Shown here piece by piece: positions 39,998 to 46,576 of a stretch of DNA of 64,000 nt (the stretch's first letter is position 1; each line of letters opens with the position of its first letter). The DNA lies in the NCBI RefSeq assembly GCF_000014285.2, contig NC_008343.2, positions 2,342,501 through 2,406,500 of the forward strand, read 5' to 3'. A program made the position numbers and the translations under genes. The DNA is from Granulibacter bethesdensis CGDNIH1 (GTDB lineage: Bacteria > Pseudomonadota > Alphaproteobacteria > Acetobacterales > Acetobacteraceae). Under the pieces are notes generated by a model. That model was not told where the DNA came from and searched no databases. It saw only the letters and a program-made list of their open reading frames with translations.

Positions 39998-41383
39998 TCA
40001 GCCCAGACGTTCGCCATGCAGCGTGACATCGAGACCTTCGACTTCCTCTTCCTGCGTTACGCGCAGGCCGATGACGACATCAATGATCTTGAGCAGGATG
40101 AAAGTCATCACGCCGCTCCAGACCAGAGTGATGCCAACCGCCTTGGCCTGAATGATCAGCTGCGGAATCCCCCCGACTACACCGGCGGGAGAGGCATCGG
40201 TCGCAGAAAGCGGACCGTAAGCGAAAATACCGGTCAGCAGAGCGCCGGTAATACCGCCGATACCATGGACGCCCCAGGCATCAAGACTGTCATCATAGCC
40301 GAGCATGTGCTTCAGGCTGGTCGCACCCCAGAAGCAGATGGCACCGGCGATCAGACCGATCAGCACAGCCGGTCCAGGCAGCACGAAACCGGCTGCCGGG
40401 GTGATAGCGACCAGACCAGCCACGGCACCGGAAAGTGCACCCAGCACGGTCGGTTTGCCACGGACCATCCATTCCACCACGATCCAGCCAATCGCCGCAC
40501 CGGCAGCACCCAGCTGGGTAGCGACAGCCGCCATCGCCGCACGACCACCGGCACTGCCGGCAGAACCGGCATTGAAGCCGAACCAGCCCACCCACAGCAG
40601 GGAGGCACCGATCAGAGCATAGGACAGGTCATGCGGTGACATATCATCCCGGCCATAGCCATAACGCTTGCCGAGCACGAGGGCACAGACCAGACCGGCC
40701 ACCCCGGCATTGATATGCACGACTGTGCCGCCGGCGAAGTCAGCGGCCCCCATACCGGCCAGCCAGCCATTCGACGCCCAGACCCAGTGTGCGACGGGGC
40801 TGTAGACGATCAGCGACCACAGGACGATGAACACCAGATAGGCGCTGAACTTCATACGATCAGCAAACGCACCGGCGATCAGCGCCGGCGTGATGATCGC
40901 GAAGGTCATCTGGAAGAACATGAAAAGAGATTCCGGGATCGTCATGCCCGCCATAGGCGCATCACTGCCCTTGACGATATGGTCGGCAATGCCGTTCAGC
41001 AGGAAGCGGGACATGTCGCCGACATAGGCATTGCCCGTCCCGAAAGCGAGGCTGTAGCCAGCCACCATCCATACGATGGACAGTACAGCGGCCGCGGAAA
41101 AGGCCTGCATCATCGTCGCCAGAATGTTCTTCTTGCGCACCATGCCGGCATAGAACAGGCCAAGGCCGGGAACGGTCATCATCAGCACGATCACACTGCT
41201 GATCAGCATCCACGCGGTATCACCGCTGTCGATCTTCGGCGTATCGGCCCAGGCGGGCATGGCCGCGAAAAGCGGCAGCGCCGCAGCGGCAGCACCCAGC
41301 CCCAGCTTGCGGCTCCCCATCTTGCGGCTTGGTAACCGCGCCTGTGCCCGGCAGTTTTCCGGGCAAGGAAGATCAGCTTTCAT
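39998..41383 (-). CDS. amtB: Ammonium transporter AmtB
   Basis: Trimeric inner-membrane ammonium channel (about 461 aa) with some 11 transmembrane helices after a cleavable signal ('LGLGAAAAALPLFAAMPAWA'). The paired pore histidines are in 'GGTVVHINAGVAGLV' and 'AWGVHGIGGITGALL', and 'GLGLFYAGMVRKKN' is a typical helix 1-2 segment. GGGGGA precedes the ATG at 41383; an ATG at 41320 gives a shorter signal. Lies downstream of glnK in the usual pair, where the PII protein blocks the channel when nitrogen is plentiful. Confidence 0.95.
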   Translation of the reverse strand: MKADLPCPENCRAQARLPSRKMGSRKLGLGAAAAALPLFAAMPAWADTPKIDSGDTAWMLISSVIVLMMTVPGLGLFYAGMVRKKNILATMMQAFSAAAVLSIVWMVAGYSLAFGTGNAYVGDMSRFLLNGIADHIVKGSDAPMAGMTIPESLFMFFQMTFAIITPALIAGAFADRMKFSAYLVFIVLWSLIVYSPVAHWVWASNGWLAGMGAADFAGGTVVHINAGVAGLVCALVLGKRYGYGRDDMSPHDLSYALIGASLLWVGWFGFNAGSAGSAGGRAAMAAVATQLGAAGAAIGWIVVEWMVRGKPTVLGALSGAVAGLVAITPAAGFVLPGPAVLIGLIAGAICFWGATSLKHMLGYDDSLDAWGVHGIGGITGALLTGIFAYGPLSATDASPAGVVGGIPQLIIQAKAVGITLVWSGVMTFILLKIIDVVIGLRVTQEEEVEGLDVTLHGERLG

Positions 41384-41503
41384 TCTTTGGTGTCCCCCAA
41401 TGAAACACATACGCTGCGCATGTACGGGCTCAGCATTCTTTGCATCCCCGCCACGTGGCGCTTTTTGACCGTTCCCGGCCTTCAGTGATGTGACGAAACG
41501 GCT

Positions 41504-41971
<468 letters not shown>

Positions 41972-43399: not shown

Positions 43400-43681
43400 T
43401 CAGGAGGAACGCAGAGCCTCCAGCTCCTGCCGCAGTTCAGCGACACAGCGTTCCAACTCCTCAATCCGCTGCTCCATTCGTGTACGGAGCTGGCTGCGTG
43501 GTCCCTGAACCGTGAACCAGGAGCGGCCCCCACTCATGGCCGCCTCCCCACAGACGCGGGGGGACAAGGCCTCCGAGCTGGTCGTGGGCGCAGGAACCGC
43601 CGAAGCGGCGCGGGCACGCTCGGCTGTGCGGTCCGTCACATGTCTTGAACGGCCCGGGCGACCAGATGGCACAGTCGTCAT
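43400..43681 (-). CDS. Small hypothetical protein with C-terminal coiled coil
   Basis: A 93-aa protein that I do not recognise. GGGAGG lies 8 bases ahead of the ATG, so it is probably real. The first 60 residues are basic, Ser/Ala/Pro-rich and probably disordered; residues 66-93 ('RTRMEQRIEELERCVAELRQELEALRSS') form a coiled coil with heptad leucines. The ending faintly recalls UbiK/BMFP proteins, and the convergent neighbour is a ubiquinone hydroxylase, but the rest does not match, so I give no name. Confidence 0.55.
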   Translation of the reverse strand: MTTVPSGRPGRSRHVTDRTAERARAASAVPAPTTSSEALSPRVCGEAAMSGGRSWFTVQGPRSQLRTRMEQRIEELERCVAELRQELEALRSS

Positions 43682-43988
43682 CGCTTATCCTCCCTTCCCG
43701 TCTGCATTGGAGACGGATCGAATTATTTTCGCTTGTGGCGCGTTTGGGAAGAGATTTTTTCATCCTCACCCATAAAATCTTTCTGAAAATTTCTTTATGG
43801 AACCATAACAGGAAATAAATACCTCTTATGGGGAGGCTACTTTTGCGCCGTTCTGCGGCCAAAAACGGTCACAGGCCATGTTTTTTCAACAGCTTGTGAC
43901 GAAGCCGCATTTACAGGAAGGTTGCGGCGACCGAGACTGTCCCTGTCCGGAGAGGTTTAAAACCCGTTATCCATGTCTGCCATCGCAT
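43682..43988. promoter_or_regulatory. Divergent promoter region with repeated TTATGG/CCATAA sites
   Basis: About 300 non-coding bases between the small coiled-coil gene and prkB, AT-rich near its middle. It holds a perfect split palindrome TTATGG-AA-CCATAA (43795-43808), another CCATAA at 43770-43775 and another TTATGG at 43826-43831. This clustering suggests a regulator binding site controlling prkB-cbbX-rpe. No cbbR gene is present in the window. Confidence 0.45.
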
Positions 43989-44864
43989 ATGTCTGAACGT
44001 CATCCCATCATTTCCGTCACCGGCTCCTCCGGTGCTGGCACGACCTCCGTGCGCAATATTTTCGACCATATTTTCCGTCGGGAAGGCATTCACGCGGCCT
44101 ATGTCGAGGGGGATGCGTTCCACCGTTACGACAGGGATGAAATGAAGCGGCAGGCAGACCGCGCCATGCGCCAGGGCAACCCGCATTTCAGCCATTTCGG
44201 CCCGGACGCTAACCTGCTGAAACAGCTTGAAAACCTGTTTCACCAATATGGTACGACCGGGACAGGGCAGACCCGGCACTATATTCATGATTTCGATGAG
44301 GCCGCCCAGTTCGGCCAGCCCCCCGGCACATTTACGGAATGGGAGCCACTGCCGGAAGACACCGATCTGCTGTTCTATGAAGGGCTGCATGGCGCGCTGG
44401 TGTCGGATGGCGTCAATACAGCTGCCCCCGCCGACCTCAAGATCGGCGTTGTACCGGTTATCAATCTGGAATGGATCCAGAAAATTCACCGCGACCGCTC
44501 GGCCCGGAAATATTCCACCGACCAGGTCATGGAGACGATCCTGCGACGCATGCCGGATTACGTGCATTATATCTGCCCGCAATTCACGCACACGGACATC
44601 AACTTTCAGCGGGTACCAACAGTCGATACCTCCAACCCGTTCATCGCCCGCGCCATTCCAAGCGCCGATGAATCCATCGTGGTCATTCGGTTCCGCGACC
44701 CGCGCGGAATCGACTTTCCCTATTTATTGTCGATGATCGCAGGCAGCTCCATGTCGCGGGCCAATTCCATCACCATTCCCGGCACCAAGCTGGAACTGGC
44801 GATGCAGTTGATTCTGACACCGATCATCCTGCAACTGGTGGATCGGGGTCGACAGGCGCGTTAA
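43989..44864 (+). CDS. prkB: Phosphoribulokinase (proteobacterial type)
   Basis: ATP-dependent kinase (291 aa) forming ribulose 1,5-bisphosphate from ribulose 5-phosphate, the Calvin-cycle step before RuBisCO. The P-loop 'VTGSSGAGTTSVRNIFDHIF', 'YVEGDAFHRYDRDEMKRQ', 'HFSHFGPDANLL' and 'LFYEGLHGALV' match class I enzymes of proteobacteria. The ATG at 43989 (MSERHPIISV) is chosen because the family starts there. It begins a rightward cluster with cbbX and rpe; no cbbL/cbbS is present. Confidence 0.93.
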   Translation: MSERHPIISVTGSSGAGTTSVRNIFDHIFRREGIHAAYVEGDAFHRYDRDEMKRQADRAMRQGNPHFSHFGPDANLLKQLENLFHQYGTTGTGQTRHYIHDFDEAAQFGQPPGTFTEWEPLPEDTDLLFYEGLHGALVSDGVNTAAPADLKIGVVPVINLEWIQKIHRDRSARKYSTDQVMETILRRMPDYVHYICPQFTHTDINFQRVPTVDTSNPFIARAIPSADESIVVIRFRDPRGIDFPYLLSMIAGSSMSRANSITIPGTKLELAMQLILTPIILQLVDRGRQAR

Positions 44865-44957
44865 GGCCGATTCCTGCAACAGGGGATTGCACTCAATGCC
44901 GCAAAGCTGTTGAAAAGGGCTGCCTGTTTCAAAGCCGGAGCAACCGCCATTTCATCC

Positions 44958-45863
44958 GTGTCCGATATCGAACCGATCATCGATCTACAAAAGGAACTGG
45001 AAAGCGCCGGGGTGAGGGAGGTGCTGGAGGCGCTCGATCATGAAATGATCGGGCTGGCGCCGGTGAAAAGTCGCCTGCGGGAAATCTGTGCTCTGCTGCT
45101 GGTCGATAACGTTCGTCGCCGCCACGGATTGATGAGCGAAGCACCGAGCCTGAACATGGCGTTTACCGGCAACCCCGGCACCGGCAAAACCACCGTCGCC
45201 GCCCGCATGGCGGGCGTGCTTTATCGTCTGGGTTTCACCAGCCGCGACCGTCTGGTCAGCGTGACACCGGATGATCTGCTGTCAGACACGATTGGTCAGA
45301 CCGCCCAGAGAACCAAGGATGCCATCGCCCGTGCATCGGGTGGGGTCCTGCTGATCGACCAGGCGCATTTCTTGCTGCGGGGTGATAACGGGTTCGGACA
45401 GGAAGCGCTGGAAATCCTGTTACAGGTCATGGAGCGCCCGGAAGCCGATGTGGTGTTCATCCTGACCGGATACACCAGAGAAATGCAGCATCTGTATTCC
45501 AGCATGGCGGGCATCCGCAGCCGTATCGCCCATCATATCGAATTCCCCGATTATAATGAGGAAGAATTACTGGACATCGCCGAAGCAATGCTGATGCGCC
45601 AGAATTACCGTTTCAGCGACAGCGGACGGGAGGCCATGATCCGCTTCATCGCTCAACGACGGACAGAACCGTTCTTCGGCAACGGCCGCACCATCCGTAA
45701 CGCGCTGGATATCGCCCGTCTGCGGCAAGCCAACCGTCTGGTTGCCATTGGCGGGCAGGTCACTCCAGCCCAGCTTCAGACCCTTGAAGCCCCGGACGTG
45801 CTGGGGGAACGGCTGTTTGCCCATCCTGCGCCTTCCCTCTCCGGATCCGATAACAGGGCCTGA
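44958..45863 (+). CDS. cbbX: CbbX-like AAA+ protein with altered Walker B and pore loop
   Basis: Matches red-type RuBisCO activase CbbX over its length (301 aa from the GTG at 44958; a TTG at 44910 is the alternative). Walker A 'GNPGTGKTT' is at residues 71-79, the arginine-finger region '[15 protein letters not shown]' is intact, and the C-terminal '[20 protein letters not shown]' is typical. Two key sites differ: Walker B reads 'LLIDQAH' (Gln135 where the family has the catalytic Glu, IDEA), and the pore loop reads 'DTIGQTA' (Thr111 where the family has Tyr, YIG). Hydrolysis and threading may therefore be impaired. Between prkB and rpe. Confidence 0.85.
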
Positions 45864-45901: not shown

Positions 45902-46576
45902 ATGACGACCACTTCTTCCGAGATCATCATCGCTCCCTCGATCCTGTCCGCCGATTTCGCCCGGCTCGGGGCCGAGGTGAGCGATGTCATCGATGCAGGT
46001 GCCGACTGGATTCATGTGGATGTGATGGACGGGCATTTCGTGCCGAACATCACGATCGGCCCCGCGGTGGTGCAGGCATTGCGGCCATTGACCGATCGCG
46101 TGCTGGATACACATCTGATGATCACCCCCGCGGATCCGTATCTGGAAGCCTTTGCCAAGGCAGGCTCCGACATCATCACCATCCATGCCGAAGCCGGTCC
46201 GCATGTGGATCGTTCGCTGGCCCATATCCGCCAGCTCGGCAAGCAGGCCGGGGTTGCGATCTGCCCCGGCACACCGGAAAGCGCCATTGAATACGTGCTG
46301 GACCGGCTAGACCTGATTCTGGTGATGACAGTCGAACCCGGCTTCGGGGGACAGAGCTTCATCCCGGCCATGGTCGAGAAAATCCGCCGCGTCCGCGCCA
46401 TGATCGGCAACCGCCCGATCCGGCTGGAGGTTGATGGTGGCATCACCCCCGATACGATCCGCGCCTGTGTTGAGGCCGGTGCCGACACCTTCGTGGCCGG
46501 ATCGGCGGTATTCAAGGGCAACCGCGATGCGTATGAAAACGCCATCACCGCCTTGCGGACCAACGCACGGGGCTGA
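45902..46576 (+). CDS. rpe: Ribulose-phosphate 3-epimerase
   Basis: Zinc-dependent TIM-barrel enzyme (224 aa) interconverting ribulose 5-phosphate and xylulose 5-phosphate. '[16 protein letters not shown]', '[18 protein letters not shown]' (metal-binding His and Asp), '[13 protein letters not shown]' and '[12 protein letters not shown]' are all family signatures. It follows cbbX after 38 bases and feeds pentose phosphates to PrkB, but it also serves the ordinary pentose phosphate pathway, so its presence alone does not show a Calvin cycle. Confidence 0.97.

Follow-up and report, generated by a model that had tools for sequence, protein, structure and literature searches.

A cbbX-derived AAA+ gene with altered motor residues, retained without RuBisCO in Granulibacter

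A reduced Calvin operon around cbbX

The window discussed here is a stretch of 64,000 nucleotides from Granulibacter bethesdensis CGDNIH1 (contig NC_008343.2, positions 2,342,501 to 2,406,500), whose genome comprises 2,708,434 bases in one contig and is 99.99% complete. Three genes of the window adjoin on the forward strand (Table 1): cbbP, encoding phosphoribulokinase (PRK), a gene of the cbbX type, and rpe, which starts 38 bases after the end of cbbX. The PRK keeps 112 of 113 near-invariant columns (columns defined on 23 relative sequences, a set in which one gene occurs twice), and PRK is found in all three genomes of the genus.

Table 1. Features of the remnant cbb operon (window positions; Rs, R. 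sphaeroides CbbX numbering)
Feature	Position	Strand	Remarks
cbbP, phosphoribulokinase (PRK), intact	43989..44864	+	frame opens at 43878; NF011997 511.9 bits against a cut-off of 362
cbbP-cbbX junction	44865..44957	+	place of cbbA, cbbL and cbbS in the closest relatives
cbbX-derived AAA+ gene (putative pseudo-activase)	44958..45863	+	GTG start; alternative TTG start at 44910
Walker A GNPGTGKT, intact	45168..45191	+	13/13 near-invariant columns of Rs 70-97 kept
pore-loop-1 Thr (ACG) replacing Tyr114	45288..45290	+	from the alignment; canonical stretch VGQYIGHTAP
Walker B LLIDQ	45348..45362	+	Gln (CAG, 45360-45362) replaces catalytic Glu138
Arg-Ser-Arg (Rs 192-194)	45516..45524	+	both arginines kept; shortly before them, Met stands in for Rs Asn188
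rpe (cbbE), ribulose-phosphate 3-epimerase	45902..46576	+	TIGR01163 288.6 bits; last gene of the remnant operon

The gene order in the closest relatives (loci L049, L054, and L057) is cbbF-cbbP-cbbA-cbbL-cbbS-cbbX-rpe, where cbbF and cbbA are labeled by resemblance (the FBPase is Pfam-confirmed for the homologue in genome G526 only). In the window, cbbA, cbbL, and cbbS are missing between cbbP and cbbX, and cbbF is missing before cbbP. All 16 relatives fetched, from a total of 44, have cbbP about 3 to 5 kb upstream of cbbX on the same strand, and 11 of the 16 have rpe behind cbbX (incomplete in one of these; among the remaining five, one locus is cut off by the end of its contig). Coordinates for all 44 put cbbP ahead of cbbX in 30 and, with another operon order, behind it in 12; for two, cbbP has no placement on the contig of cbbX. 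In the PRK tree the genus sits beside relatives with an upstream cbbP (support 95/91). Searches with the models for the large (PF00016) and small (PF00101) RuBisCO subunits gave no match in any of the three genus genomes, which disposes of a RuBisCO elsewhere in the window's genome; as a control, the PF00101 search recovered the small-subunit gene in two RuBisCO-bearing relatives. As read from gene content and order, a red-type Calvin operon was reduced to cbbP-cbbX-rpe in the ancestor of the genus, and RuBisCO was removed with it.

A scan for promoters and terminators gave nothing useful. Ammonium transporter and P-II genes lie near the remnant operon (39998-41953, reverse strand). This proximity may be due to chance; in R. 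sphaeroides, nitrogen metabolism has been linked to PRK, according to the available part of PMC4806589. A small ORF before cbbP (93 aa; 43400-43681, reverse strand) has no NCBIfam match and may not be a gene.

The altered residues of the CbbX-type protein

The cbbX reading frame is open from the alternative TTG to the stop codon ending at 45863, and it is open in all three genus genomes. A match to CbbX along the whole length, claimed in the preliminary description, is borne out by the alignment of R. sphaeroides CbbX (3syk) to the window protein (chain residues 10-294, E 2.6e-92), but the TIGR02880 score falls short of the equivalog cut-off of 459.25 bits. The three genus proteins score 364, 362.5, and 362.8 bits, and that of G526, discussed below, 440.9 bits and hence also below the cut-off, compared with 503-520 bits for four canonical CbbX proteins (G049's included). 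An AlphaFold model of the window protein, based on an alignment of four sequences, has a mean pLDDT of 81, with residues 277-301 below 50, and chains of 3syk, 3syl, and 3zuh occupy ranks 1-4 in the fold match of this predicted model (query TM 0.73-0.80). By orthology and synteny, the gene can be taken to descend from cbbX. Given the residues that define its product, however, the name "activase" should not be carried over to the predicted protein.

The pore-loop Tyr and the Walker B Glu correspond to R. sphaeroides Y114 and E138 in the alignment to 3syk, and they are replaced by Thr111 and Gln135, respectively (numbers counted from the GTG start). Exchange of the Walker B Glu for Gln is a usual change for blocking ATP hydrolysis. 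Both substitutions had been pointed out in the preliminary description, together with the question of whether they are conserved in a clade; both are present in 3/3 genus genomes. A base-calling or sequencing error is unlikely, since the three genomes agree at the two positions. The interval to which both changes had been assigned, 45331-45375, contains the CAG codon, while the ACG codon falls outside it. Walker A is intact, as had been noted. The same was said of the arginine-finger region, which is correct for the arginines at Rs 192 and 194 but not for Asn188, four residues upstream of Rs 192, which is invariant among other CbbX proteins except that of G526 and is Met in all three genus genomes. 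The SpoVK-EccA-CbbX clade is marked by GY in sensor 1 and by an Asn placed four positions ahead of the first arginine finger (PMC10659427, in the part available), and in our reading Rs Asn188 and Arg192 are this Asn and this finger. The sensor-1 GY is kept in the window protein (ILTGY). In addition, the protein carries a two-residue deletion at Rs 148-149. It keeps Arg239, Arg249, and Arg252 and has Ile in place of Arg257, a residue that is invariant in 62/62 other sequences with a residue there; one of the arginines at 249, 252, and 257 is presumably the sensor-2 Arg or second arginine finger of the clade.

How the changes are distributed along the protein was assessed in two ways. Columns with at least 97% agreement among 63 other sequences were defined as near-invariant, and 81 of 115 such columns are kept in the genus. 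The changed ones amount to 1/14 in Rs 10-69, 0/13 in Rs 70-97 (Walker A), 9/19 in Rs 98-130 (pore loop 1), 9/25 in Rs 131-163 (Walker B), 9/17 in Rs 164-196, and 6/27 in Rs 197-294 (helical subdomain). Pooling Rs 98-163 against all other near-invariant columns gives a Fisher p of 0.057, which is not significant. The stronger form of the regional test uses the spread of 60 canonical CbbX sequences, relative to which consensus retention in the genus has z values of -9.5 (98-130), -14.3 (131-163), and -6.6 (164-196), compared with -3.8 (10-69), -1.9 (the Walker A region), and -1.8 (the helical subdomain). On this measure the changes cluster in three places, namely pore loop 1, Walker B, and the segment with sensor 1 and the Arg finger, while Walker A and the helical subdomain appear near normal. 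The value for the N-terminal part, also below normal, counts against this regional picture.

CbbX in other genomes and a second lineage

Outside the genus, 95 of the 96 CbbX-bearing genomes read at these positions have Glu at 138 together with an aromatic residue at 114 (Tyr in 94, Phe in one), i.e., 45/45 in the family, 16/17 in the class, 24/24 in the further phylum sample, and 10/10 in a further family, f131. The family sample, 397 genomes drawn from a larger group, gave 54 CbbX matches at E <= 1e-40 and 47 at E <= 1e-80, three of which belong to the genus. At most five first-look candidates were scored per genome in these surveys, a procedure by which a second CbbX could be missed. A PF00016 match accompanies CbbX in 44/44 of the other family genomes at E <= 1e-80, in G049 as a fragment only. 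In the class sample, CbbX at E <= 1e-60 is found in 17 of 384 other genomes, and RuBisCO in all 17 (a different RuBisCO in G526). Matches to cbbL and/or cbbS by tblastn, not sorted by RuBisCO form, flank cbbX in 27/27 family, 16/17 class, and 24/24 further phylum loci, and in 11/11 f131 loci besides that of G526, with genome G627 counted twice, once for the class and once for f131. The remaining 18 family genomes were compared by coordinates: 16 have a RuBisCO match near cbbX on one contig, G314 has it on another contig, and G049 has the fragment. The contig scan gave only three distant loci, and near records may be missing from it.

The large-subunit fragment of G049 (L100:6330-6602, forward strand) lies shortly before a normal cbbX that keeps YIG and IDEA, and no small subunit was found there. 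G049 may represent an early step, a lineage now losing RuBisCO. Weaker CbbX-like matches occur in seven genomes, four of which have no RuBisCO match (G189, G068, G209, and G048; 35-39% identical); these four proteins are probably other members of the clade. Two incomplete genomes also touch on the pairing of PRK with RuBisCO: G381 has a PRK over the cut-off and no match to the large or small subunit, an uncertain absence in a genome that is 88% complete, and G281 (86% complete) has PRK and a weak RuBisCO-like match only. Cupriavidus metallidurans was considered as a parallel case and set aside, as its authors found no cbbX according to the available text of PMC2864759.

G526 is the sole class genome without cbbLS adjoining cbbX (1/17). 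Its operon reads cbbF-cbbP-transketolase-cbbA-cbbX-rpe and lacks the cbbLS pair that would separate cbbA from cbbX; its cbbX (L109:5193-6143, reverse strand) encodes Y114P, E138Q, and N188D. The RuBisCO of this genome (L108:6351-7772) lies about 10 kb away, beside the carboxysome genes for CsoS2 and CsoSCA, and is 57% identical to the red-type protein. The congeners G797 and G798 have kept cbbLS and a normal CbbX; three more genomes of the genus gave no CbbX match. In a three-way residue comparison, G526 has 18 unique changes in Rs 98-163 and its sisters none and none. The corresponding counts are 5 against 1 and 1 in Rs 164-196, and 10 against 6 (G798) and 9 (G797) in Rs 10-97 and 197-294 taken together, the helical subdomain contributing 5 in G526 against 4 and 5. 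Within G526, the difference between 18/66 and 10/186 sites has a Fisher p of 7e-6. The change is thus regional, since the motor parts are altered whereas evolution of the N-terminal and helical parts proceeds at roughly the usual pace. The CbbX branch of G526 is long (0.35 vs 0.04 and 0.13 for the congeners), its PRK branch is ordinary (0.023 vs 0.022 and 0.046), and the dN/dS of its cbbX is 0.209 and 0.107 against the two congeners, compared with 0.054 between them. G526 CbbX looks to be under relaxed constraint.

By these comparisons, G526 lost cbbLS independently of the window's genus and repeats the pattern at the same two positions; such full losses number two, a small sample. G526 supports the loss of the motor and not a role connected with PRK, because RuBP there still has a RuBisCO. 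In the window's genus, the order of events that the genomes point to is that the loss of the two residues followed the loss of the RuBisCO client, a cause absent from the preliminary description, which missed the missing client, the collapse of the operon to cbbP-cbbX-rpe, and the repeat in a second lineage.

Selection, possible functions, and known systems

Pairwise dN/dS of cbbX within the genus is 0.044-0.054, which rules out pseudogene status there; the comparison genes give 0.023-0.059 (rpe), 0.033-0.041 (dnaQ), and 0.013-0.030 (cbbP). The altered stretch Rs 98-163 taken alone has a dN/dS of 0.031-0.037. Between G000 and G100, cbbX (Rs 10-294) has accumulated 7 nonsynonymous and 46 synonymous changes (binomial p ~5e-21). 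These ratios mark cbbX in the window's genus as a gene under purifying selection and not one in decay. Rs 164-196 is not clearly constrained: the pair G157-G100 gives a dN/dS of 0.296, and G000 differs from G100 there by 2 nonsynonymous changes and no synonymous one. Synonymous divergence between G000 and G100 falls from Rs 164 on (5/93 vs 41/119 sites; about 45432-45820 of the window, compared with L047), possibly the trace of a recombination tract between species. Conservation of the helical subdomain within the genus was dropped as evidence because synonymous divergence to G100 is low there as well.

The branch leading to the genus measures 2.31 on its side of the midpoint root of the CbbX tree (3.32 in all), compared with 0.59 in the PRK tree; between members of the genus, branches are short (0.003-0.022). 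Rapid change following the loss of the client, and then renewed constraint, would fit both the tree and the dN/dS values. Part of the CbbX branch length is perhaps nonspecific, since Granulibacter proteins are reported to form long branches generally (PMC10715153, in the part available) and PRK is the sole control.

In R. sphaeroides CbbX, binding of RuBP to the helical subdomain turns the protein into a hexamer, and residues of the pore loop use ATP hydrolysis to pull on the C-tail of RuBisCO (PMC5385338, in the part available). The Y114A change abolishes the activase function and leaves the ATPase, while E138Q inactivates the complex when placed in red-algal CmN and is tolerated in CmP, where the hetero-oligomer still works (both from the available text of PMC5437159). 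Loss of both residues would leave ATP binding, possibly with RuBP binding and assembly, and no threading, and the pattern of conservation in the window protein suggests the same. As regards RuBP, the retained helical subdomain only suggests binding, and the Arg257 to Ile change and the altered near-invariant columns of that subdomain count against RuBP sensing. Between the two outcomes offered in the preliminary description, a non-hydrolyzing regulator or a relic, the intact Walker A, the low dN/dS, and the identical residues in 3/3 genus genomes favor the former.

We give about an even chance to a retained pseudo-activase, i.e., a protein that binds ATP and probably RuBP, does not thread or hydrolyze normally, and likely acts on or with PRK. 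Collapse of the operon in the ancestor of the genus would have freed the activase from threading the RuBisCO C-tail. The comparisons show a protein that has given up the Tyr of the pore loop and the Glu used for hydrolysis, retains the ATP pocket, the arginines, and the larger part of the helical subdomain, where RuBP binds in CbbX, and is now held by purifying selection. Most likely an ATP-bound ring or oligomer forms that performs no threading and little or no ATP hydrolysis and that may respond to RuBP made by the neighboring PRK. PRK is proposed as the partner because it neighbors cbbX and supplies RuBP. The likeliest job, and the weakest step of the model, would be to bind and adjust PRK or to report the RuBP level, such that RuBP without a consumer is kept from accumulating. 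Control of PRK through protein binding is known elsewhere, as in the case of CP12 (PMC4806589, in the part available). A broader idea, which we put forward tentatively, is that RuBP is a regulatory metabolite in cells without RuBisCO: PRK would make RuBP, the ATP-locked ring of the former activase would sense it and control PRK, and loss of the client may repeatedly yield non-motor RuBP sensors.

The purifying selection would also fit a re-tooled motor, a chaperone still hydrolyzing ATP by another route and dedicated to remodeling a new client, be it PRK or some other enzyme. The SpoVK/EccA/CbbX clade indeed comprises chaperones with narrow and differing clients (available part of PMC10659427). 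However, none of the Walker B Glu, the pore-loop Tyr, and the Asn of the clade is left, and Glu138 to Gln is a change used to block hydrolysis in CbbX (PMC5437159, in part), which makes this reading unlikely. Still more doubtful is a relic that drifts out after the loss of RuBisCO. The client is gone and the branch to the genus is long, and the raised dN/dS of G526 fits relaxation in that lineage, but cbbX has an open frame in all three genomes of the window's genus, and its dN/dS is as low as that of rpe and dnaQ, also across Rs 98-163; moreover, general decay should not leave Walker A and the helical subdomain near normal. The tolerance of CmP for E138Q offers a precedent for a subunit of mixed rings with another AAA+ protein, after the manner of that red-algal plastid isoform (PMC5437159, in part), and other AAA proteins are present in the window's genome. 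With every first-look candidate scored, each of the three genus genomes has a single CbbX-type match at E <= 0.001 and no second, normal CbbX, and a partner role is improbable. That the frame is kept only to couple transcription or translation to rpe, a gene probably needed by the cell and only a short spacer away, is the least credible proposal, as coupling would constrain length and frame and not amino acids, and dN/dS is low.

A pseudo-activase retained in this way would make the locus a natural experiment on what becomes of a dedicated chaperone once its only known client is lost, in two lineages. A CbbX kept under selection without RuBisCO is also a conserved counter-example, and it raises the question of why an intact RuBP-making enzyme is kept without RuBisCO. 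Among the open-access matches listed, there was no description of a RuBisCO-less CbbX and no paper with both "Granulibacter bethesdensis" and "CbbX".

Among known systems, R. sphaeroides CbbX/CfxQ (3syk, 3syl, and 3zuh) is the closest. The window protein shares its predicted fold (53-54% identity in the fold match) and its place in the operon before rpe with cbbP upstream, so that orthology is supported by synteny, and it keeps Walker A, Arg192/Arg194, Arg239/249/252, and most of the helical subdomain. It differs by Y114T, E138Q, N188M, the deletion at Rs 148-149, a score below the TIGR02880 cut-off, and the want of RuBisCO in its genome, hence of any linkage to cbbLS. SpoVK, a MurG chaperone, and EccA belong to the same higher-order AAA+ clade (PMC10659427, in part), and the sensor-1 GY is kept. 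Unlike in that clade, the clade Asn is Met in 3/3 genus genomes and Asp in G526, and the window protein scores 216.8 and 143 bits, under the SpoVK and EccA cut-offs, in a different context. The E. coli control genome likewise gave a match to the PRK model but none to that for RuBisCO; its PRK-family protein is, we assume, PrkB, presumably with no CbbX beside it. Red-algal CmN/CmP offer the nearest biochemical parallel, as E138Q or Y114A was engineered there at the same two positions (PMC5437159, in part). The positions that biochemists mutate deliberately have here been changed in nature, both together, in a single-copy gene of a genome without RuBisCO.
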